From Geobacter sp. FeAm09 (GTDB lineage Bacteria > Desulfobacterota > Desulfuromonadia > Geobacterales > Pseudopelobacteraceae): a DNA stretch of 64,000 bases. The notes below the pieces were generated by a model. That model searched no databases. It was given only the letters and a program-made list of their open reading frames with translations, and was not told where the DNA came from. Location: positions 3,900,001 through 3,964,000 of the forward strand of contig NZ_CP042466.1 in the NCBI RefSeq assembly GCF_008330225.1, written 5' to 3'. This document shows positions 1,721 through 12,527 of this stretch, piece after piece (the stretch's first letter is position 1; every line of letters begins with the position of its first letter). A program made the position numbers and the translations under genes.

Positions 1721-3349
1721 CTACAGGTAGCGTGTCAACTTGCGGTACAGCGTCGACGGACTAATCCCCAACTGGCTGGCGGCAAGCCGTTTGTTGTCGC
1801 CGGAGGCGCGCAAGACAGCCATGATGTAATCTCGTTCCGCTTCTTCGAGCTTCTTGACCCCGCTGCCTGACGAATAACCCGATATCGACTGCATGGTCTG
1901 GATATGCTTCGGCAGGTCATCCAACTCGATGTATTTCCCCCTGCAAAGCGCCACGCCTCTCGCCACAACGTTTTGCAACTCCCTCACGTTTCCCGGCCAA
2001 CTGTAGTTCAGAAGGCACTCTGATGCCTGAGGGGAGAACCTCGTCACCTTCTGGCTCATGTCCTTGGTGTACTGCTGTAGAAACATCTGGGCGAGGGGCA
2101 AGATATCTTCCGGGCGCTCCCGGAGGGCTGGCACCATCACTTCAATGACGCAGAGCCGATAATAGAGGTCGCACCGGAAGCGACCCGCCGCTACCTCGTC
2201 GGCCAAGTTGCGGTTGGTTGCCGCAATGATCCTCACGTCAACCGGACGAACCTTGTTTTCCCCCACCCTCCGTACTTCCTTTTCTTGCAGGACCCTTAAC
2301 AGCTTTACCTGCATGCCTGGCGAGATTTCCCCGATTTCATCGAGAAACAACGTGCCACCACAGGCCTCCTCGAATATGCCGGGACGGTCCCGGTCTGCAC
2401 CAGTAAAAGCGCCTTTAGCGTGTCCAAAGAGTTCGCTCTCCAGAAGCGATTCAGTAAGAGCGCCGCAGTTTACGGCGATAAACGGTTTTGCTTTCCGGTT
2501 CGACTGACTGTGTATTATCTGCGAGATGCGCTCCTTCCCCGTACCGCTTTCGCCCATCACGATCGCCGGTGCATTGACCCGCGCGACGTGCTTTGCCAGG
2601 TCGATGACCTGCTTCATAGCCTTGCTGCGTATGATGACACCGAACTGCTCTTCGTCAGTTTTCTCGAGTAAGCCGAGTTGTCGCTGCCTGCTGGCAATAT
2701 TATGCTCGGTCTTCTTTAGTTTCTTTGTCAATTCTTGGAGTTTCTCATCGACAGAGGATAAACAGTAAAAGGAAAGCTGCTCCTTGTACTCCGGTCCCCA
2801 CTGTTCCTTGTATCTACCCTCCATCTGGCATGTCGCATCACCTTTTGCCGTGCATTCCCGCTCGATGAAGTATACCTCACGCCCCTTCTTGTAAGACTCA
2901 TATCCGCTGGCAAAGCCGGTGAGGGTCCAGCAGACCGCTTCTTCGGCTTTTCCGATGTACAGCAGGTGCTGTTCGACCTCAAATGAGTTCGCCCATTTGA
3001 CTTGAAAGAGCGGCTCCGGTCCAGTGCCGTCGGTATGCTGAAAGTCGTACGACTTGGTAAGCCCACAGAGCCCGTGTATGTAGGCTCCACCGTGGAGGTT
3101 GTTGTAAATGTGCGGATATTGGGCCCGTTGGACCTCGGCCGTCCGCCAGCCATGTGCGTATCCAAATCGGGTGAGGATCGTCCTGGCTGCGGTGTGACCC
3201 AGAGTTTTGATGAGCTCCGCCCGCAGCAGGCCGAGTGCCGTTGCGTCAAACAGCAGGACCCTGCGGTCCATCAAACGGACGATGCCGTTGGCGCTGTCAT
3301 AGGTCAAAAGGTGCTCGAGATTTACATCCTTGATCTCTTCAACATCCAT
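1721..3349 (-). CDS. XylR/DmpR-like sigma-54-dependent activator with V4R sensor domain
   Basis: Enhancer-binding protein of 542 aa that would activate RNA polymerase-sigma54 on binding a small effector. Domains in order: XylR_N-type region (about 5-105), V4R effector domain (about 110-180, with Cys-containing ...CTAKGDATCQ...), charged linker (about 195-235), AAA+ domain with Walker A GESGTGKE (266-273), sigma54-contact GAFTGA (313-318) and Walker B GGTLFLDE (331-338), and a Fis-type HTH at the end (NKRLAASQLGISPSTLYRKL). A GTG start six codons upstream would read through the Shine-Dalgarno GGGAGGAGG, so the ATG of MDVEEIKD is chosen. XylR, DmpR, PoxR and relatives sense aromatics through this architecture; the ligand here is unknown. 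It is divergent from a sigma54 promoter and is very probably its regulator (inference). Confidence 0.93.
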   Translation of the reverse strand: MDVEEIKDVNLEHLLTYDSANGIVRLMDRRVLLFDATALGLLRAELIKTLGHTAARTILTRFGYAHGWRTAEVQRAQYPHIYNNLHGGAYIHGLCGLTKSYDFQHTDGTGPEPLFQVKWANSFEVEQHLLYIGKAEEAVCWTLTGFASGYESYKKGREVYFIERECTAKGDATCQMEGRYKEQWGPEYKEQLSFYCLSSVDEKLQELTKKLKKTEHNIASRQRQLGLLEKTDEEQFGVIIRSKAMKQVIDLAKHVARVNAPAIVMGESGTGKERISQIIHSQSNRKAKPFIAVNCGALTESLLESELFGHAKGAFTGADRDRPGIFEEACGGTLFLDEIGEISPGMQVKLLRVLQEKEVRRVGENKVRPVDVRIIAATNRNLADEVAAGRFRCDLYYRLCVIEVMVPALRERPEDILPLAQMFLQQYTKDMSQKVTRFSPQASECLLNYSWPGNVRELQNVVARGVALCRGKYIELDDLPKHIQTMQSISGYSSGSGVKKLEEAERDYIMAVLRASGDNKRLAASQLGISPSTLYRKLTRYL

Positions 3350-3406
3350 ACCCCTGCCTCCTCCCACAGCCTACTCGTTTCAGGACGGTGCCCATATGAA
3401 TACATG

Positions 3407-3444
3407 TGTTCTATTTTGCAACTGAATATTTGCATAATAGAACA
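3407..3444. promoter_or_regulatory. Palindromic upstream activating site
   Basis: Arms TGTTCTATTTTGCAA (3407-3421) and TTGCATAATAGAACA (3430-3444) are inverted copies matching at 14 of 15 positions, separated by 8 bases. The centre is about 80 bases upstream of the -24 GG of the following promoter, a normal place for an enhancer-binding protein. It also lies just upstream of the divergent regulator gene, so binding could autoregulate it. Confidence 0.8.
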
Positions 3445-3504
3445 ACAACGTCAATGGCAAGACAAAAAATAATGTTAATACAGTATGTTATGCATGAGTG
3501 CTCG

Positions 3505-3520
3505 TGGCATGGGCGTTGCA
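3505..3520 (+). promoter_or_regulatory. Sigma-54 (-24/-12) promoter
   Basis: TGGCATGGGCGTTGCA fits the sigma54 consensus TGGCAC-N5-TTGCA almost exactly. GG (3506-3507) and GC (3518-3519) are separated by the required 10 bases. Transcription would start near 3531 and give a short leader of about 35 bases before the cytochrome gene. Confidence 0.88.
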
Positions 3521-3564
3521 CAATAATGCGAAAACTATGAAACGCCTGAACAAGGGAGGATGGA

Positions 3565-3909
3565 GTGAGAAAGGAAATAGTTCTGTTAGTGACAAGCATT
3601 TTTGCAGTTAACGCCGCCTACGCACTTGGCCAGCCGAGATCTGTTTCGGGCAAGCATCGAGCCAATCAGCTTGACTGCAGGTCATGCCATGAAACATCCG
3701 AGCCGGCATTTCCCCCGACCAAGGAGGTGTGCATATCGTGCCACGGGGAAGTCGTGAAGATAAGGCCGACCGAGGTAGCGCCGGGGGTTATGGCAAATGT
3801 ACATGAATCGCATTATGGCGAAATAGATTGTCTGGCCTGCCACAGGATACATGCGAAGGGTGAGCTTTACTGCAACGAGTGCCACAAGTTCGGCATAAAG
3901 GTCAAGTAG
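3565..3909 (+). CDS. Periplasmic tetraheme c-type cytochrome, reductase partner
   Basis: Small exported electron carrier of 114 aa. A signal peptide (about 1-20, ending AYA) is followed by four CxxCH heme sites: CRSCH (38-42), CISCH (56-60), CLACH (89-93) and CNECH (103-107). Size and heme spacing resemble the tetraheme N-terminal domain of flavocytochrome c fumarate reductase and the separate cytochrome of two-subunit periplasmic reductases such as Geobacter methacrylate reductase. The start is GTG, preceded by GGGAGGATGGA; an overlapping ATG at 3560 stops after two codons. It is the first gene after the sigma54 promoter and would deliver electrons to the flavoprotein encoded next (inference from pairing). 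Confidence 0.9.
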   Translation: MRKEIVLLVTSIFAVNAAYALGQPRSVSGKHRANQLDCRSCHETSEPAFPPTKEVCISCHGEVVKIRPTEVAPGVMANVHESHYGEIDCLACHRIHAKGELYCNECHKFGIKVK

Positions 3910-4062
3910 GTGGTTGCCCAAATCCCAAAACGTGAGGCTGAAAAAACGGTGCTGGATATTGCGCCGGCAATGCTGAAAGGAGGGAAAAGATGTAATCCAT
4001 ATGCCATGCGGCCTTCAGTTCAAAGCTTGACAGAGTGTTACTACAAATAGCGGAGGGACATC

Positions 4063-5772
4063 ATGAACAGGGAAAACAATACAGAAAACGGTATTTCACG
4101 CAGGGATTTTTTTAAGGGTAGTACGGCGACGCTGGCTGGTCTGGCTGTCGCCAGCGCCATGCCCGTGAAAAGTGTGGCCGGCGATATTCCGGCTGCCTAT
4201 GCAGAGCCCAAGTGCGGCGGCTGGAGTTGGGAGAAGAAGGTGAAGATCACTGCCGGGGAGATCAAGAAGGAAATCAAAACGGACGTTGTCGTCATCGGAG
4301 CGGGGCTTTCCGGCATCGTGGCAGCAATTTCAGCCGCTGAGCAAGGTGCAAAGGTTCATCTGGTCGACAAAAATCACATATGGGCTGCCCGCGGCGGCCA
4401 TATCGCCGCGTTTGGCAGCAAGATCCAGAAGCAGATCGGGGTCAGTCCCGATTACCGCCAGATCATCCGGGCTTGGGTGGCGTGGGCCCAGGGACGGGTC
4501 GACGAAAAGCTTCTCTGGGACTTCGCCCACAAAAGCGGCGCCTGCATGGACTGGATGATGGACATTTGCCAAAAGAACGGCCTCACGGCGGCGCTGTGGG
4601 AAGGCTATTACAAGGGGCCTGACTACACCGAATATCCGGTTACCCATTTCGTCCACGAGCGTGGCGCGGACCTGACCTATGCCAACGGCAGCGCCAAAGG
4701 GGTCGGCAACATCGTCCTTCTGCCCGTGCTTGAGAAGACGGCCAAGGAGTTGGGGGTAACCATCAGCTACAAGACGCCAGCCGTGCAGGTCCTGACCGGT
4801 GACAACGGCAGGGCGACAGGCATCATAGCGGGAAAGGCGGGGAACTACACCAAGTACACCGCCAACGCCGTTATCATAGCAACTGGCGACTACGCCTCGA
4901 ACAAGGAGATGGTCAAGCGCTACTCCCCGTTCTCTCTTCACGCCGACGCCCAGATATATTTCCCGAACAAGTGTAATACCGGTGACGGCTTGATCATGGC
5001 CATGCATGCCGGCGGAGCCATGCAGAAACACGAACCGCACGCTGCGGTTATTCATCTCGAGGCCGGGGCGGCCAGCTACGGTTTCCTCCATGTCAATGCC
5101 AACGGCGAGCGTTTCAAGAATGAAGACGTGAACACGCAGTCCAAGAGCTGCACCAAGGAGTTGCAGCCGCACGGTATTGCATGGTCCGTCTATGACCGGG
5201 ATTGGGCCGAACAGGTGAAAGAGCAGGTCGATAACAACATCGCAGGGGGGCTGTTCTTCGGCCAGACCTTCCAGCCGTGGGGCAAGGGTTTCGATATCCG
5301 CATGGAAAAGGCTATCCAGGAAGGACACATCAAGGATGGCAAAGTCGTGGTCGCCAATTCACTTGAAGAGTTGGCAAGAAAAATGGGAGTCCCTGCCGGA
5401 AACCTCAAAAAAGCCGTCAAGCGGTACAACGACCTTTACGAGATGCAAGACGATCCTGATTACGGCAAGCGTGCGAAATTGCTCACGCCTATCGTGAAGC
5501 CTCCCTTCTATGCGGGCAAGTTGCAAAGCACGGTCCTTACCATGTGTGGCGGCCTGCACACGGACAGCCGGTTGCTGGTTCTGGACAAGGACGACAATCC
5601 CATCGAGGGGCTGTACGTGGTCGGCGCCGCCCAAGGCGACTTCTTTGCCAATGATTACCCAACGATCTGCCCAGGTATCGGGCACGGTCGCTGCCTCACC
5701 TTTGGCCGGTTGGCCGGCATCAAGGCGGCAGGCGGCGACATCGACAAAGCGGTCCCGTCGCTCAAGATTTGA
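4063..5772 (+). CDS. Tat-exported FAD-dependent reductase, flavocytochrome c flavin-subunit family
   Basis: 569 aa flavoprotein. Tat signal SRRDFFK (12-18) plus hydrophobic stretch, then a Rossmann FAD motif GAGLSG (79-84) with Asp102 ending strand 2, the GGHIAAFGS region, the capping domain (HVNANGERFKNED) and a C-terminal FAD-closing segment (PGIGHGRCLTFGRLAG). The family comprises periplasmic fumarate, urocanate, acrylate and methacrylate reductases that reduce activated C=C bonds. Two hallmark fumarate-reductase positions differ when aligned by eye: the catalytic Arg (TTRDK) falls on Gln359 (NTQSK), and the His of VHHTMGG falls on Leu492 (TVLTMCGG). Fumarate is therefore unlikely; an aromatic or other enoate is possible. 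It lies 153 bases after its cytochrome partner, probably in the same transcript. Confidence 0.88.
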   Translation: MNRENNTENGISRRDFFKGSTATLAGLAVASAMPVKSVAGDIPAAYAEPKCGGWSWEKKVKITAGEIKKEIKTDVVVIGAGLSGIVAAISAAEQGAKVHLVDKNHIWAARGGHIAAFGSKIQKQIGVSPDYRQIIRAWVAWAQGRVDEKLLWDFAHKSGACMDWMMDICQKNGLTAALWEGYYKGPDYTEYPVTHFVHERGADLTYANGSAKGVGNIVLLPVLEKTAKELGVTISYKTPAVQVLTGDNGRATGIIAGKAGNYTKYTANAVIIATGDYASNKEMVKRYSPFSLHADAQIYFPNKCNTGDGLIMAMHAGGAMQKHEPHAAVIHLEAGAASYGFLHVNANGERFKNEDVNTQSKSCTKELQPHGIAWSVYDRDWAEQVKEQVDNNIAGGLFFGQTFQPWGKGFDIRMEKAIQEGHIKDGKVVVANSLEELARKMGVPAGNLKKAVKRYNDLYEMQDDPDYGKRAKLLTPIVKPPFYAGKLQSTVLTMCGGLHTDSRLLVLDKDDNPIEGLYVVGAAQGDFFANDYPTICPGIGHGRCLTFGRLAGIKAAGGDIDKAVPSLKI

Positions 5773-5915
5773 GACCGGCAAACGTCACGCCCCGTATCAT
5801 GAGGTGACCTTGAGGCTGTCCCTGCTTCGGCCGAGCCTTTGCCAAAGAATCTCACACTACCGGGCCCAGATTATGACGAATCGATGAGGCTTCGTCACAT
5901 CACAGGGAGATTCAG

Positions 5916-6764
5916 ATGAAAATTTTATGGAGAGCTCTATTCGCATGCCTGTTACTGCTGTCCCCGACTGTGTCGCATGGCGGCGACACCAACGCCCGAG
6001 ACTACCTTCCGGCGCCATCCGGCACCAAGGTAATGTTGACCTATTACAAGCACATTACTGCCGACAGCCTTTATGTCGGCGGAGAGCGCACGAGTGGCTT
6101 CAACTATACACAGGACCTCGGCTTCTTTAGGTTCGTCTACTTCAACACCCTGTTCAACATGCCGATCGACTACCAGGTGCTGGGTTTTTACAACAATCAG
6201 ACCTTGAATGGCACCATGTCCAGCTCCGGCGTGATGGACCCGTCACTGGTGTCAACCATCTGGCCGGTCAGCAATCCGGCCTCAAAAACCTGGGTTGGCT
6301 TCACCCAGTACGTTTCGATGCCGATCGGCCAATACAACAAGAACAACGCACTGAATCCGGGGAACAACGTCTGGGCTTTCAAAGAGGAATTGGGATTAGC
6401 CCAGGGCATCGGCGAAAAGCTCCTCTTCGAGTTGGAACCTTCCGTGGAGTTTTACACGGACAATGAGGACAACTCCACCGGGCGGTTATCCAAACGTCCG
6501 CTGTTTCAGCTTAACAGCCACCTGAGTTACGACGTAACCCCCAAATTTTTTGTCTCCGCCGACTATACCTATCAAAACGGCGGCGAGACCACCACAGCCG
6601 GGGTCTCCGACAACAATAGGACCCAGTCACATCGGGTCGGAGTCAGCTTCAATTACAAGATAGCTGACGATCTGCAGGCGATGGTTGACTATTCCGCGAC
6701 GGTCGACACCGAGAATGGGCCCAAGGCAAATATTTCGGGTGTGAGACTCATGTACGTATTCTAG
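5916..6764 (+). CDS. Outer-membrane channel, MetA-pathway-of-phenol-degradation (transporter) family
   Basis: 282 aa protein with a signal peptide (about 1-22, ending SHG). The mature part is rich in alternating hydrophobic/polar strands and ends in aromatic RLMYVF, as outer-membrane beta-barrels do. The family (Phenol_MetA_deg) is repeatedly found beside catabolic clusters for aromatic compounds and is thought to pass hydrophobic substrates. It is third gene downstream of the aromatic-type sensor and the reductase, which suggests it brings the reductase substrate into the periplasm (inference). RBS is GGGAGAT. No clear terminator is visible before the convergent efflux gene. Confidence 0.8.
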   Translation: MKILWRALFACLLLLSPTVSHGGDTNARDYLPAPSGTKVMLTYYKHITADSLYVGGERTSGFNYTQDLGFFRFVYFNTLFNMPIDYQVLGFYNNQTLNGTMSSSGVMDPSLVSTIWPVSNPASKTWVGFTQYVSMPIGQYNKNNALNPGNNVWAFKEELGLAQGIGEKLLFELEPSVEFYTDNEDNSTGRLSKRPLFQLNSHLSYDVTPKFFVSADYTYQNGGETTTAGVSDNNRTQSHRVGVSFNYKIADDLQAMVDYSATVDTENGPKANISGVRLMYVF

Positions 6765-6942: not shown

Positions 6943-9900
6943 TTAATGGCCAGCCTCGCCGGCGATCCGCTCCAACTCCGCCTGGGCAAGGCGGTATCCC
7001 AACTCAGCCTGAAGTTCATCGGCCTCGGCCTTTGCGACGGCGGCAACCGATTCGGCATGGCGGGCTGCCGTGGTGGCCCCGGCCTTCACCCGGTTGGCGC
7101 TCAGGCGCAGTTGCTCCTTCCGCAGTTGCAGCGCCTCCCGGGCCACATCCACCATCAGCCGGGTCTGTTCCAGCTTCCGGTACGCCTTGGCGACGTCGAC
7201 CGCTATCCGCTGTTCCAGCCGCCTCACGTTTTCCTCGGCCTGGGTCATCTGCGCCCTGCGCTGGCCGACGACGCCCCGGCGGCTCCCCCAATCGAGGATG
7301 TTCCAGGTCATCTGCACGCCGAAGGTTCCGATGTTGTGCACCAGGAACGGCACGCCGTCCTGATAGGTGTGGCGGGCAAACAGGCTGATATCCGGGATAT
7401 ACTCGTCACGGGCGGCGCTCACGGCATGGCCGGCCTTTATCACGGAACCCCGTGCCGCCAGCAGTTCGGGATTGCGGGAGAGCGCGTCCCGGAGATACCC
7501 GGAGAGGGGCTGAGGGGCGGGCGGCGCTTCAGCCACCGTCGCCAGAATCAGTTCCGTATCCGGCGCAAGCCCCAGAAGGTCGTTCAGTTCCGCCGTCAAA
7601 TCGGTTATCAGGATCTCGGCGGCCAGGAGCGAATGCCTGCTTTGGAGGCTCTGCACGCGGCTGCCCGCTGCCGCGACATCGAGCAGATTGCCGGCCCTGA
7701 CGCCATCCTCGCTTTCCCGCACCTCTTCCCGTGTAGCCGCCACTGCCGCCTGGGCCGCCTCTTGCTGTTTGTGGGCGATCAACACGCCATAATAGAGTTG
7801 GTGTACCCCAAGGATCACCTCATGTTCCGCCTTCCTGGCGTCCGCTTCCGCGATCTTCTGGTCCGTATCCGCAATCTTGTTGGCTTCGTGGACCTTGAAC
7901 AGTTGCGTCAACGGCTGGCTCAGGGTCGTGGTGCTGAGCAATGTAGCGGCGGCACCCTGGCGGAGCGTGGTGGTTTGCGACGGAAAGGGCCCTGCTCCCG
8001 GGATGGTGCCCAGGCTGCCGGCGGGTACGGTGACCAGTTCCTGGTCGGAAACGCCCACATACGACGTCGTGTTGGACAGCCGGGGGAAATAGTCCGCCCG
8101 GGCCGAAACAAGGCGCTGCCGATTCTCCCGAACCTTTGCCTGGGAGATCTTCAGCGCGGCATTCTGTTTCCGCGCCAGGTCCACCGCTTCGTGGAGCGTG
8201 AGCTTCACCTGCTCCGCCCAAGCCTGCCCCGTTCCGGCCGCCAGCAGGCCGGCCGCGGCCAGGATCACGGCCATGGCAGGGGGGGCGGCCCCCCTCCTCC
8301 GCGACATGACGAGCACGTAGAGGACCGGCACCACCAAGAGCGTAAAGAACATGGAGAGGATCAACCCCACCGCGATGACGCTGGCCAGGGGGCTCCAGAG
8401 GCTGGACCCGGAGAGGATCATGGGCGTCACCCCCACCGCAGCGGCCATGGTCGTCAGGAAGATGGGACGCAGCCGGCGTTCCCCCGCCTCCCTTGCCGCC
8501 TGCTCCAGGCTTTCGCCCTCGGCTATTTTCTCCTTGATGTAGTCCACCAGGATGATGGCGTTGCGCACCACGATGCCGCAGAGGCTGATCATCCCCATGA
8601 AGGCGGTAAAGCCGAAGGGATTGTGCGTGAGCAACAGGCCAAGCACCGCCCCGGGCAGGGCCAACGGTATGGACGACATGATGACCAGAGGTTCGCTCAC
8701 GGTCCTGAACTGGACGAGAAGGACCAGGAAGATGGCCAGCAGGCTGATGCCGAGGGCCACTGTCATCTCCGGCAGGGTCTGCTCGCTGTTGGAACTTTCC
8801 CCGCCGTATTCGATCCGGTAGCCCGGGGGGAGCGGCAGGTTTTTTATGTGCGGCCGGACGGTTTTCAACAGGTCGGAGGCATACCACCCCTGCTTGACGA
8901 AACCTCGCACCGTGATGGTCCTCACGCCGTTGCGGCGGACAATCCGGCTGGTTTGCCATTCAGGCTGGAGGGTCGCAATGGAGCGGAGCGGCACGCTGGC
9001 GTTGGTAAGCCGGGATGTCAGGTAGGCGTTTTGCACATCGGCGAACGAGGTGCGGGAGCCCTGGTCGAGGCGAAGCAGTATGCTCACCGGCCGGTCCCCC
9101 TCCCACAGGGTGTTGACCGGGCCGCCGTCAAGGGCGCCGCTCAAGAGCCGGGAAACGGAGGAGTTCGTTATGCCGAGCCGGTTCGCCAGTTCGTTGTTGA
9201 CGTTCACATCCACCAGGCACGAATCGTTGAAAAAATCGTTGTGGACAAACTGGGCGTACGGGACGGCGGAAACGATGGTCTGGACCTGGGCGGCCAGGCG
9301 CTTCAGTTCGCCGATATCGTCGCCGGAGATGCGGACCTCGATCGGGGCTTCCAGCAGTTCCCCCTGCTGCAGCTCCTTGACGATGACCAGCGCCTCGGGG
9401 GCCAGATTGGCCAGGCTGGTGCGCAGTTCGTCGACGAGCAGCGGCGTCGCTTCGACAGATTTCGTGTTGACGATGAACTGGCCATAGGCCGCGTCCGGCA
9501 ACTGGGGGTTCACGTTGTAGTAGAAGCGCGGGGCGCTCTGCCCGACAAAGCTGGCGTAGTGGGTGATCCCGGGCCTGCTCGCCAGGTGGCTCTCGATGCG
9601 GCGCATTACCGCGTCCGTGCTCTCGATGCGCGCTCCCTGGCTCATCCACACGTCGATCACGAACTGGTTGCGCTCGGCGGAGGGGAAGAACTGCTCCCGC
9701 ACGGTCCCGAAGAGGAGCACGCCGGCGGCAAAGGCGCCGGCGCCGAGCAGTACGGCAAACCTCTTTTTCGCCATGAACCGGGCAATCAGGATCTTGTAGC
9801 CGGCCTGGAGTGCATCCAGCACGCTGAACGTCTTTTTCGCACCCTTCGTTTCCCCGTTTTCGTGGTCGTGCAGCCCCTTTTTGATAAAGAACCGGCAGAG

Positions 9901-11355
9901 TATGGGGGTGAACAGCACCGCCACGATGAAGGAGACCGTCAGGGCGATGGCGACCGTGAGCGGCAGCGCCATGATGAACTCACCCACCGACCCGCTGATG
10001 ATGAGGAGCGGCAGGAAGGAAAAGACGATCGTCACCGTCGCCGTGAATACCGGGACCACCACGTCGGTAGCCGAACGCCAGGCCGCCTCGGCTTTCGGTA
10101 CCTTCCGGTCGAGAAGCTCCACATAGTTGTCCGCAATGACGATGGCGTCATCCACAACGATCCCGAGCACCACGATCAGGGCGGCGATGGAAACCTGGTG
10201 CAGGGCGATGCCCAGGGCGTTCATGACCCCCAGGGTCGCACACAGCGTGATGGGTATGGCCAGGGCCGCGATCACGGCAACGCGGATCGGCAGGAGGATG
10301 ACGGTCACGAGGATCACGGAGCCGATCGCCAGGAGGAACTCGTGGCTCAGGCTCGTCATGCGGCTTTTCACGACCGCCGGCTGATTGGCGATCAATTCGA
10401 GCTGGACGTCCGGCGGCAGGGCGTTTTTCAGGCGGGTGAAGACCCGGTCGATCTGTTCCCCGAGTTGGACGATGTTCTTCCCCTTTTGCATCTCCACGGA
10501 CAGAAGGATGCTCGGCTCGCCGTCGTGGCGCACCAGAAAGGTGGGGTCCTGATAGCGGCGTTCGACCGTGGCGAAGTCGCGCAGGTAGACCGGTTGCCCG
10601 GTTTTGGACACATCGACCATGGTGGAGCGGATCTGCTCCTCCGTGGTGAAAAAGCCGGTGGTGCGCAGGGGGATCTTGGCATGGGCCGCCTCGAAGTTCC
10701 CGGAGCCGGCGATGATGTTTTGCTGTTGCAGCGCCTGGACCACCCGGGACGGATCGGCAAAATACTGAGAAACCCGCTCAAGGCTGCTGGTGATCAGGAT
10801 CTCCTCGCTCTGGCCGCCATAGGTGGCCAGCTTGCCGATATCCCGGACCGACCGCAGCTCATCCTGAATCCGGTCCACGTAATCGCGCAGTTCCCGGTAG
10901 CCGTAGCGTTTCCCGTGCACGGCGATGAGCATGGCCACCGTATCGCCGAAATCCGAGTTCACCATGGGGCCGCGCACGCCGTCGGGCAGTTCCGTGGCCC
11001 GGGCCTCGTTCAGTTCATTGCGCAGCTTGGCCCAGAATTGATCCGCATTTTTTACGTAGTCCTCAAGCTCCACATTGATGGCGACCAGGCCGGGGCGGCT
11101 CGTCGAATAGGTCTTGCCCTTCCTGACTTCGGGGAATTTGAAGATATGCTTTTCCAGGGTTTTGGTGACCTGCTTTTCCACCTGTTCGGATGTGGCGCCC
11201 GGGTAGAGGGCCAGCACCAGGCCGGTGCGTATCGTTATGGTGGGGTCTTCCGTGCGGGGCATGACGAGGAACGCGCGGATGCCGACGATGACCAGCAGTG
11301 CCGCGAGGATCACGGTAACGGTCGGATAACGTAAGGAGGCCTTGGCCAGATTCAT
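6943..11355 (-). CDS. RND efflux permease fused in frame to a TolC-like outer-membrane factor
   Basis: 1470 aa, about the sum of an RND permease and a TolC protein. Residues 1 to about 1015 are the proton-driven permease: TM1 near 12-30, proton-relay pair D402-D403 in GIVVDDAIVIADN, a TM10 GIVVRNAIILVDY, and a last TM ending VLYVLVMSRRR. A second signal-peptide-like segment follows: RRR, hydrophobic core from Met1028, AWA-EQ cleavage site near 1047/1048. The remainder has two OEP repeats (LHEAVDLARKQNAALK and the half starting near LRDALSRNPELLAARG). If translated as read, signal peptidase I could release the TolC part. The junction holds a G6 run and a C7 run, so a one-base error could have joined two overlapping genes. 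Its ATG overlaps the adaptor stop by one base (TAATG). Confidence 0.85.
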   Translation of the reverse strand: MNLAKASLRYPTVTVILAALLVIVGIRAFLVMPRTEDPTITIRTGLVLALYPGATSEQVEKQVTKTLEKHIFKFPEVRKGKTYSTSRPGLVAINVELEDYVKNADQFWAKLRNELNEARATELPDGVRGPMVNSDFGDTVAMLIAVHGKRYGYRELRDYVDRIQDELRSVRDIGKLATYGGQSEEILITSSLERVSQYFADPSRVVQALQQQNIIAGSGNFEAAHAKIPLRTTGFFTTEEQIRSTMVDVSKTGQPVYLRDFATVERRYQDPTFLVRHDGEPSILLSVEMQKGKNIVQLGEQIDRVFTRLKNALPPDVQLELIANQPAVVKSRMTSLSHEFLLAIGSVILVTVILLPIRVAVIAALAIPITLCATLGVMNALGIALHQVSIAALIVVLGIVVDDAIVIADNYVELLDRKVPKAEAAWRSATDVVVPVFTATVTIVFSFLPLLIISGSVGEFIMALPLTVAIALTVSFIVAVLFTPILCRFFIKKGLHDHENGETKGAKKTFSVLDALQAGYKILIARFMAKKRFAVLLGAGAFAAGVLLFGTVREQFFPSAERNQFVIDVWMSQGARIESTDAVMRRIESHLASRPGITHYASFVGQSAPRFYYNVNPQLPDAAYGQFIVNTKSVEATPLLVDELRTSLANLAPEALVIVKELQQGELLEAPIEVRISGDDIGELKRLAAQVQTIVSAVPYAQFVHNDFFNDSCLVDVNVNNELANRLGITNSSVSRLLSGALDGGPVNTLWEGDRPVSILLRLDQGSRTSFADVQNAYLTSRLTNASVPLRSIATLQPEWQTSRIVRRNGVRTITVRGFVKQGWYASDLLKTVRPHIKNLPLPPGYRIEYGGESSNSEQTLPEMTVALGISLLAIFLVLLVQFRTVSEPLVIMSSIPLALPGAVLGLLLTHNPFGFTAFMGMISLCGIVVRNAIILVDYIKEKIAEGESLEQAAREAGERRLRPIFLTTMAAAVGVTPMILSGSSLWSPLASVIAVGLILSMFFTLLVVPVLYVLVMSRRRGAAPPAMAVILAAAGLLAAGTGQAWAEQVKLTLHEAVDLARKQNAALKISQAKVRENRQRLVSARADYFPRLSNTTSYVGVSDQELVTVPAGSLGTIPGAGPFPSQTTTLRQGAAATLLSTTTLSQPLTQLFKVHEANKIADTDQKIAEADARKAEHEVILGVHQLYYGVLIAHKQQEAAQAAVAATREEVRESEDGVRAGNLLDVAAAGSRVQSLQSRHSLLAAEILITDLTAELNDLLGLAPDTELILATVAEAPPAPQPLSGYLRDALSRNPELLAARGSVIKAGHAVSAARDEYIPDISLFARHTYQDGVPFLVHNIGTFGVQMTWNILDWGSRRGVVGQRRAQMTQAEENVRRLEQRIAVDVAKAYRKLEQTRLMVDVAREALQLRKEQLRLSANRVKAGATTAARHAESVAAVAKAEADELQAELGYRLAQAELERIAGEAGH

Positions 11356-12485
11356 TACCGCGCCCCCTTTTCAGGTGCCGCTGTCTTCTTTCCGGGAACC
11401 TCCCCGGCCGGTATGGCGGAAACGGGGGCGCCGTCCCGGAGGCGCTCCTGGCCGGCAAGGATGACAGGCTCGTCCCCCGTGAGCCCCTTGATTTCGATCT
11501 CCTTACCGTGCATGGCGCCGGTTTCGACCCGTTTGGCATACGCCCGGCCCTGGGCGGGATAGTAGACGTAGACCATGGTGGCGCCCTGCGGGTCGCGCAC
11601 GATGGCCTCCACCGGCAGGGTCAGCAGCTTTACCGTCCTGTCGCCGCGGATGTGCGCTTCCGCAACCATGCCGATCCTGAGCTCGTGTTTCGGGTTCGGG
11701 ACGCTGATGCGGGCCATATAGGTGCGCGTGCCGGGATCGGCGGAAACATTGACGAGACGTACGGTCCCCTCGAATGATCTCCCCGGCAATGCCGGCAGCG
11801 TAACCTCGGCCTTCTGCCCCGCCCGGACGAGGTGCACGTCGGTCTCGGGGACCCCCACGCTGATCTCTACGGTATCCAGCGTGACGATTTCAAAGACCGG
11901 GCGTCCAGGGCTCGCCATTTCGCCCGGTTCGATGGCGCGTTTGGCAATGAACCCGCTGACGGGGGCGTGGAGCGTTGCGTCGGCCACATGTTTCCGGGAC
12001 AGCTTTTCCGAGGCAGCGGCCTGCTCCACCTGCTGCCGGGCGGATTCGAATGCGGCCCTGAATTTCTGGTAGTCGTTGGGCGCCAGGCTCTTGGAGTCGA
12101 ACAGCATCTTCATCCGCCGATGCTCGTCCTCGGCACGTTCACAGGCGACCCGGGCCATGTCGGCCTGTGCCGTGGCCGTTGCCAGGGCCAGCCGGTAATC
12201 GGTGGGATCGACCGATGCCAGCAGTTGCCCCTTCCTGACGGGGTCCCCTTCCCGCGGGCCGACCTGGATCACCTTGCCGGATACGAGGAACGAAACATTT
12301 GCCGGCGCATCCGGAGCGGCGGTGGTCCCGCTGACCGACACGGCCTGCCGGTCTTCCCGATGGTACGGCGTGCCGATCTTCACCGGTATCGCCGAAGCGG
12401 CGCCCTGTTCACTCTTTTTGCCCGATGAACAGGCCGGAAGCGTCATGGCCACCACCCCTGCCAGAAATAGAACGACTGCTTTCAT
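11355..12485 (-). CDS. RND periplasmic adaptor (membrane fusion protein), lipoprotein
   Basis: HlyD/AcrA-type adaptor of 376 aa that would link the permease to the outer-membrane factor. The N-terminus MKAVVLFLAGVVAMTLPACSSG is a lipoprotein signal with a PAC lipobox. It continues with a biotinyl-lipoyl half (GPREGDPVRKGQLLASVDPTD), an alpha-hairpin (about 95-165), the second lipoyl half (HAPVSGFIAKRAIEPGEMA) and beta-barrel (VRLVNVSADPGTRTYMARIS). A TTG start five codons earlier includes the Shine-Dalgarno GGAGGAG, so the ATG at 12485 is used. The stop overlaps the permease ATG, giving translational coupling. Confidence 0.93.
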   Translation of the reverse strand: MKAVVLFLAGVVAMTLPACSSGKKSEQGAASAIPVKIGTPYHREDRQAVSVSGTTAAPDAPANVSFLVSGKVIQVGPREGDPVRKGQLLASVDPTDYRLALATATAQADMARVACERAEDEHRRMKMLFDSKSLAPNDYQKFRAAFESARQQVEQAAASEKLSRKHVADATLHAPVSGFIAKRAIEPGEMASPGRPVFEIVTLDTVEISVGVPETDVHLVRAGQKAEVTLPALPGRSFEGTVRLVNVSADPGTRTYMARISVPNPKHELRIGMVAEAHIRGDRTVKLLTLPVEAIVRDPQGATMVYVYYPAQGRAYAKRVETGAMHGKEIEIKGLTGDEPVILAGQERLRDGAPVSAIPAGEVPGKKTAAPEKGAR

Positions 12486-12527
12486 TGCTGACTCCTCCAA
12501 TGTGTTCTCTACCGTAATGTGTGTCGA

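Follow-up and report, generated by a model that had tools for sequence, protein, structure and literature searches.

A phenol-type sensor beside a split flavocytochrome reductase in Geobacter sp. FeAm09: a candidate inducible respiratory cassette

The four-gene locus and its promoter

We analyzed a group of four genes of Geobacter sp. FeAm09, located at positions 1721-6764 of a 64,000-nucleotide stretch of contig NZ_CP042466.1 (positions 3,900,001 to 3,964,000), the whole of which is called the window below. The original prediction, made from the DNA letters alone, placed here a XylR_N/V4R regulator, a tetraheme cytochrome, a flavin adenine dinucleotide (FAD) reductase exported by the twin-arginine (Tat) route and a MetA-type barrel; Pfam matches and motifs identified all four. 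The features of the locus are as follows.

1721..3367, minus strand: REG, a sigma54 activator of the XylR/DmpR/MopR type with a XylR_N + V4R sensor, AAA+ and HTH_8 (Pfam; matches to the MopR and CapR structures)
3407..3444, no strand assigned: inverted repeat with 15-nt arms, 93% complementary, a candidate upstream activating sequence (UAS) for activator binding (shuffles)
3505..3520, plus strand: sigma54 promoter TGGCAT-N5-TTGCA, TGGCATGGGCGTTGCA, the sole match of the pattern in the window
3565..3909, plus strand: CYT, an exported tetraheme cytochrome c, kin of the flavocytochrome c3 heme domain (four CxxCH, PF14537, 1qo8)
4063..5772, plus strand: RED, a Tat-type FAD reductase, the catalytic subunit of a split flavocytochrome, with a Tyr532 loop (Pfam, alignments, AlphaFold2 (AF2) model, Foldseek)
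5916..6764, plus strand: OMP, an outer-membrane barrel protein of the Phenol_MetA_deg family (PF13557; Pfam)

REG matches XylR_N (5e-24), Sigma54_activat (7e-70) and HTH_8 (2e-12), and also V4R (6e-07), for which its 29.8 bits are slightly below the Pfam cut-off of 31; this is the domain order of XylR/DmpR/MopR-type regulators (XylR_N and V4R, an AAA+ sigma54 domain and a Fis-type helix-turn-helix). Its start may be an ATG seven codons inward (3349). CYT matches Cytochrom_c3_2 (PF14537, 3e-16), has four CxxCH motifs and resembles the heme domain of flavocytochrome c3 in sequence (1qo8, 3e-10); RED has the twin-arginine motif SRRDFF and matches FAD_binding_2 (1.7e-39); OMP matches Phenol_MetA_deg (6.8e-24). 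Since CYT corresponds to the heme domain and RED to the flavin domain of flavocytochrome c3, the pair represents a flavocytochrome split over two genes, as opposed to the single tetraheme and flavin chain of flavocytochrome c fumarate reductases. The same plan, a separate Tat flavoprotein and a Sec multiheme cytochrome in one operon, is that of the Mrd/Mcc system, and a PF14537 cytochrome with a Tat FAD reductase devoid of fumarate reductase residues is the plan of Cgr1/Cgr2; here the operon was judged by same-strand adjacency and the Tat and Sec signals by motif.

The divergent sigma54 promoter of the original prediction was found at 3505-3520, preceding the presumed target operon as is typical of this type of regulator. 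The pattern TGGCAYN5TTGCW has one match in 64 kb at 0.14 expected, and when the entire window was shuffled 100 times, 14 of the shuffled versions contained at least one match; mismatches as few as those of the site were seen in two of 200 shuffles of the 197-base gap between REG and CYT. The inverted repeat at 3407-3444, equalled in none of 1000 gap shuffles and centered about 79 bases upstream of the -24 element, is likely to be the activator-binding site.

Linkage of sensors and reductases across genomes

Genes with XylR_N occur in 39 of the 141 genomes of the order, the genome containing the window being the richest (eight genes, followed by four). The search produced 80 match rows, counted as 79 genes, and 65 genes were fetched, while the 14 left out scored 116 to 137 bits, which is the range of clade A defined below. 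With L086 (same phylum, outside the order) and L088 (Seleniivibrio) added and the fragments L148 and L149 dropped, the final set again comprised 65 regulators. In a quick tree they form clade A (29 regulators) and clade B (36 regulators), separated by a branch of support 100, and all eight regulators of the window's genome fall in clade B.

A reductase and a cytochrome are encoded within 3.5 kb of 27 of the 36 clade B regulators versus none of the 29 clade A regulators (Fisher 7.5e-11, the related genomes not being independent). The genes were counted with our own search of open reading frames and with hidden Markov models to which some of these loci had contributed. All 27 linked cytochromes carry four heme motifs; one of the 27 reductases, that of L071, is a fragment. 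A third same-strand gene within 1.8 kb encodes a barrel-type protein in 24 of the 27 cases: a PF13557-type barrel in four and an exported protein of a 393-residue class in 20. All four parts are present in Seleniivibrio. The original prediction was not refuted by these counts of how far the genes stay together in relatives.

Fourteen divergent gaps drawn from the 27 linked regulators, including that of the window (gap ends were in part set by hand), all contain a sigma54-like site with one or two mismatches on the strand toward the reductase genes, the opposite strand having three or four mismatches at best; per-gap shuffles did equally well in 0 to 23 of 200 cases. The Seleniivibrio cassette has two exact sites.

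Within the window's genome (4.10 Mb, one contig), reductase homologs are found in about 18 places (25 TBLASTN matches, merged). Four of the eight XylR_N genes adjoin a reductase and a tetraheme cytochrome: those of the window and L041 and the two tandem genes of L037. No such pair lies beside the remaining four (L029, L032, L033 and L036). L041 contains all four parts, with identity to the window of 60% for the regulator, 56% for the barrel, 36% for the cytochrome and 30% for the reductase. Some other reductases of the genome adjoin other regulators, namely TetR and other sigma54 activators.

RED belongs to a clade with support 100, seen among the 47 loci of a one-per-species genome scan, together with reductases of a Desulfuromonadales metagenome-assembled genome (MAG; 80% identity), Seleniivibrio (Deferribacterota; 67-68%), Sutterella (Betaproteobacteria; 61%) and a Xanthobacteraceae bacterium (Alphaproteobacteria; 60%); among these four, Seleniivibrio alone keeps all four parts. 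RED-like reductases (E up to 1e-90) were found in two of the 141 genomes of the order, the window's genome included, and three further genomes reached 1e-60 in a phylum sample of 395, few candidates per genome being scored in both scans. In a quick tree of 75 reductases, which omits 21 loci (near-copies, partial or remote rows) as well as the L139 and L141 reductases, the placement of the 19 sensor-linked members takes 10 label changes, of which nine are forced by well-supported branches, indicating that one sensor clade goes with many reductase clades.

For BamA (TIGR03200), which marks ring degradation of the benzoyl-CoA type, a search at 1e-50 gave no match in the window's genome and a match in 26 of the 141 genomes of the order. 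Considering the classed regulators, it was found in 14 of 15 genomes with clade A and in three of 21 with clade B only (Fisher 3e-06, again for non-independent genomes). Ring degradation thus goes along with clade A and, for the most part, not with clade B, a pattern compatible both with other aromatic pathways and with detoxification.

Several observations concern individual loci. In L071 (1800-6213) the tetraheme cytochrome is followed by reductase pieces split by insertion-like genes (judged by eye), with an intact regulator alongside. In L037 (4721-13758) two sensor-cytochrome-reductase cassettes stand in tandem and the barrel gene accompanies only the second. Two reductase genes of the genome, L029:13660-15567 (413.9 kb) and L030:7219-9021 (772.2 kb), are identical across the aligned columns; each adjoins a regulator of more than 1000 residues matching the sigma54 part of REG, and a tetraheme cytochrome lies beside the L030 gene only. 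The Sutterella relative is a MAG from deer rectum. The 393-residue-class protein (L075:9899-11080 and kin) has no Pfam match at 0.001, no match in the PDB and a single NCBIfam hit of 21 bits versus a cut-off of 600; judging from its signal peptide and terminal Phe, it may be a porin. Copies with the same start occur elsewhere in the window's genome, twice in L029 and once in L043.

Eight of the nine clade B regulators without a linked reductase form one subclade (L029, L032, L033, L036, L072, L079, L083 and L143:11492-13126) with neither reductase nor cytochrome neighbors, and the ninth, L071_10081, has a linked regulator as its sister. In L029, L072, L079 and L083, the starts of neighboring proteins resemble MoaA or MobB by eye, so that this subclade perhaps controls a molybdoenzyme.

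Ligand pocket of the sensor and active site of the reductase

REG matches the MopR sensor structure 5kbe at 1.2e-25, and also CapR/DmpR (6iy8). The alignment with MopR shows that H106 and W134 of MopR are kept as H98 and W125 of REG, and that the zinc ligands are kept as C146, E169, C172 and C180; REG thus has both the His/Trp anchor pair and the Cys/Glu/Cys/Cys zinc site of phenol sensors. According to extracts of two papers (PMC7264223, PMC10715001), the His/Trp pair anchors the phenol hydroxyl in MopR, DmpR, PoxR and their kin, and XylR, a toluene/xylene sensor, has Tyr in place of the His. The pair in REG points to a phenolic hydroxyl rather than a carboxylate as the ligand feature.

Among the 27 reductase-linked sensors, the His is kept in 24, the Trp in 22, both in 22 and the zinc ligands in all. 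Both anchors are lost in L073, L144 and L145, which form one subclade, and only the Trp in L071_6506 and L088. Clade A has the pair just as often (26 of 29), so it does not distinguish clade B. The position of F132, which lines the pocket of MopR, is occupied by V, S, T, N or C in 26 of the 27 linked sensors and by F or Y in 18 of the 29 clade A sensors, which suggests that the linked sensors have space for a larger ligand. The sensors of the window, L041 and Seleniivibrio share one fork (support 85, quick tree), and the pocket residues L91, A95, T104, E157 and M182 are common to those of the window and Seleniivibrio.

The AF2 model of RED has a pLDDT (predicted local distance difference test) of 84.4 and a pTM (predicted template modeling score) of 0.86. 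In the Foldseek comparison urocanate reductase (6t86) is the best match, followed by FccA (1d4c) and, further down, ketosteroid dehydrogenases; 4at0, 4c3x and 8am8 are among the matches. The FAD domain is homologous to that of flavocytochrome c fumarate reductase (1d4c, 2.8e-31; profile, 9.9e-73), as the fold also indicates. R402, H504 and R544 of FccA, the residues that hold the carboxylates and protonate the substrate, have no equivalents in RED: R402 is replaced by T358 or Q359 (alignments differ on this point), H504 by T493, and the R544 region is a loop that has no Arg and carries Tyr532. On this ground RED was rejected as a fumarate reductase. Tyr532 is invariant in all 38 relatives aligned, the window included (alignment A3), and 24 of the 25 sensor-linked reductases aligned combine this Tyr with the lack of an Arg at 358/359, the exception being the Arg-type L073:4704-6338. 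The paralogs L034 and L042, and largely L043, retain an Arg-type site, hence the genome has both kinds of reductase; none of the three adjoins a XylR_N gene. The top NCBIfam model for RED is the vinyl phenol reductase VprA (NF053717) with 183.4 bits, the cut-off being 600.

Two candidate ideas were dropped. A strict pairing of sensor type with active-site type was tempting, since L073_6503, beside the Arg-type reductase, has lost both anchors; however, L144 and L145 have lost both beside a non-Arg class, L143 keeps both beside the same class, and L073_6503 is flanked on its other side by a Tyr-type reductase. Vinylphenol is not claimed as the specific substrate, given the VprA score below the cut-off and the lack of phenolic acid decarboxylase (PF05870) in the window's genome.

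Interpretation and relation to known systems

We consider it very slightly more probable than the opposite that the cassette is an inducible periplasmic respiratory reductase unit using a phenolic-type compound as electron acceptor. This is based on the linkage of reductases with clade B but not clade A, the sigma54 sites in all gaps tested, the anchor pair in most linked sensors, the zinc ligands in all of them, the match of CYT and RED to the heme and flavin domains of flavocytochrome c3, the Tyr532/no-Arg pattern, the absence of BamA and its distribution over the two clades, VprA as the top NCBIfam match, below its cut-off, and the Cgr1/Cgr2 precedent. Substrate, induction, direction and energy gain are all matters that we infer. 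A phenolic compound, probably larger than phenol, would be bound by the V4R sensor via His98/Trp125, and the ligand-bound activator would turn on the CYT-RED-OMP operon. The inducing compound, or a relative of it, would enter through the OMP barrel; electrons of the quinol pool would pass via periplasmic cytochromes to the tetraheme CYT and to the FAD of RED, which would reduce a C=C or comparable bond, with no carboxylate clamp to hold it. The compound would serve as an electron acceptor and not as a carbon source, which better fits a genome with eight XylR_N genes but no BamA. The cell thus probably breathes with a plant-derived or aromatic compound via the cassette.

Several observations weigh against this respiratory reading. 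The anchor pair, being equally frequent in clade A, is by itself no mark of respiration, and the sensor of Seleniivibrio, whose reductase is the closest one within a full cassette, has Leu for the Trp; what the sensor detects may also be a product or some accompanying signal. Nine of the 36 clade B regulators have no adjoining reductase. Three of the four close relatives of RED lack the XylR_N regulator in the fetched stretch: the Desulfuromonadales MAG has major facilitator superfamily, TatC and nine-heme proteins there and neither the sensor nor a CYT-type cytochrome, the Xanthobacteraceae reductase has a LysR gene alongside, and Sutterella has only the cytochrome and the reductase. The distant cassette L086, whose genes all point in one direction, has no good sigma54 site (three mismatches at best). 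Vinylphenols would need an external origin, as PF05870 is missing from the genome. Finally, the Tyr that Cgr2 has in common with ketosteroid dehydrogenases was mutated without loss (PMC5953540, in part), therefore Tyr532 cannot be named the proton donor.

The original prediction stood as far as a periplasmic reductase with separate flavoprotein and cytochrome subunits and an aromatic-type sensor is concerned. Its weaker half was an unsaturated acid such as cinnamate as the acceptor. Hydroxycinnamic acids would offer the sensor pair its phenol hydroxyl, and according to extracts of the respective papers they accept electrons in lactobacilli via the flavoprotein HcrB (PMC10295242) and follow a CoA-dependent route in Weissella (PMC13101492). 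Still, RED and nearly all aligned sensor-linked reductases lack the Arg of the carboxylate site, RED also lacks the other two residues, the His/Trp pair favors a phenolic hydroxyl, and the Arg-type paralogs stand apart from the XylR_N genes; thus, an aromatic acid such as cinnamate or caffeate is an unlikely acceptor.

The reverse direction, in which a periplasmic dehydrogenase would desaturate a phenolic or alicyclic compound and pass electrons on via the tetraheme cytochrome, like ketosteroid or cyclohexanone dehydrogenases, appears rather unlikely. The loop with the invariant Tyr resembles that of ketosteroid dehydrogenases, and 4at0, 4c3x and 8am8 are in line with this possibility, but urocanate and fumarate reductases are better matches in both sequence and fold, CYT is related to the domain that supplies electrons in fumarate reductase, and BamA is lacking for use of an aromatic product by the benzoyl-CoA route. 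Detoxification, that is, removal of a toxic phenolic, quinone or similar compound by respiratory electrons with no growth benefit, would agree with the detection of toxic aromatics by XylR-type sensors and with an RND-type (resistance-nodulation-division) efflux pump encoded directly downstream on the other strand; we consider it quite improbable, as a tetraheme cytochrome accompanies the reductase in every linked case and four such cassettes in one genome fit respiration. An ordinary fumarate or methacrylate reductase under an unusual regulator, suggested by the fold and subunit plan of FccA and Mrd/Mcc, is very improbable given the active-site residues absent from RED.

The cassette, which we favor as a respiratory unit for a phenolic-type acceptor, belongs to a family in which one sensor clade is combined with many different reductase clades. 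Its parts are of known kinds; new, as far as a search of open-licence PubMed Central (PMC) papers shows, is a split flavocytochrome reductase under a phenol-type sensor. No description of a clade of V4R phenol-type sensors dedicated to exported flavoprotein reductases with a cytochrome and a barrel was found in the open-licence PMC papers, so "undescribed" is provisional. The nearest systems are Mrd/Mcc in Geobacter and two from gut bacteria, namely Cgr1/Cgr2 and the arsenals of reductases reportedly described by Little et al. 2024, which the cassette family parallels.

The sensors MopR, DmpR, PoxR and XylR (including MobR and PheR) share with REG the domain order, the His/Trp anchors, the zinc ligands and the sigma54 promoter, whereas the known ones, as far as the available extracts describe them, govern degradation of aromatics and clade B adjoins exported reductases. 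FccA, Ifc3 and UrdA are similar in the fold, the FAD domain, the kinship of the heme domain and the periplasmic plan; the cassette differs in having heme and flavin on two genes, in lacking the acid and carboxylate residues, and in its sensor and barrel. For Mrd/Mcc of Geobacter sulfurreducens AM-1, the partial text of PMC4427408 describes a Tat flavoprotein and a Sec cytochrome in one operon, horizontally transferred and with kin in Deferribacteres; what sets it apart in that description is a promoter of the -10/-35 type, a cytochrome of 231 residues and no mention of a XylR_N sensor or barrel. The digoxin reductase Cgr1/Cgr2 of Eggerthella lenta (PMC5953540, in extract) likewise combines a PF14537 cytochrome with a Tat FAD reductase devoid of the fumarate reductase residues, reduces a neutral unsaturated lactone and is strongly induced by its substrate; it differs in a LuxR-type neighbor, a putatively membrane-anchored cytochrome and the requirement of Cgr2 for an iron-sulfur cluster, which had eluded bioinformatic prediction, and a REG-type sensor goes unmentioned in that extract. 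VprA of Lactiplantibacillus plantarum, whose model is the top match and whose substrate is a phenolic alkene, differs in that RED stays below the model cut-off and in that VprA is under a LysR regulator (PMC10295242, in part); the clade of RED does not include the Lactobacillaceae homologs L132 and L133, which may or may not be VprA. Two other papers, seen as extracts, were set aside: the benzene flavoproteins of PMC13416013 are related to glycolate oxidase and VAO/PCMH and unrelated to RED, and the flavocytochrome in the work on aromatics in G. metallireducens (PMC1924859) is p-cresol methylhydroxylase.

If the respiratory reading is correct, the range of soluble electron acceptors in Geobacter-like bacteria extends to neutral phenolic or other aromatic compounds, and the presence of aromatic-type sensors in genomes without the benzoyl-CoA pathway is explained. 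The sensor, being encoded next to the enzyme, can serve as a guide to the enzyme's substrate, and screening of compounds with promoter reporters makes the substrates of a large uncharacterized reductase family testable. A wider proposal, possible but in our view somewhat doubtful, is that Desulfuromonadales (Geobacter-like bacteria) possess a plug-in respiratory cassette, in which a phenol-type V4R clade, split from the ring-degradation clade, was repeatedly coupled to unrelated reductases, each with its own tetraheme cytochrome and an entry barrel in the outer membrane. Phenolic or other aromatic compounds would then be sensed and respired by side-chain reduction, undegraded, and the window's genome, with eight sensors, four of them reductase-linked, and no BamA, would be that of a specialist of humus- or lignin-linked respiration.

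As to the surroundings, a DNA gyrase gene adjoins the cassette. The efflux pump downstream is a single frame of 1470 residues (6943-11355, minus strand) that comprises a whole RND pump (ACR_tran, 4-1016) and an in-frame TolC-type OEP (best stretch, 1287-1466); a gene for a membrane fusion protein comes next, at 11355-12500.

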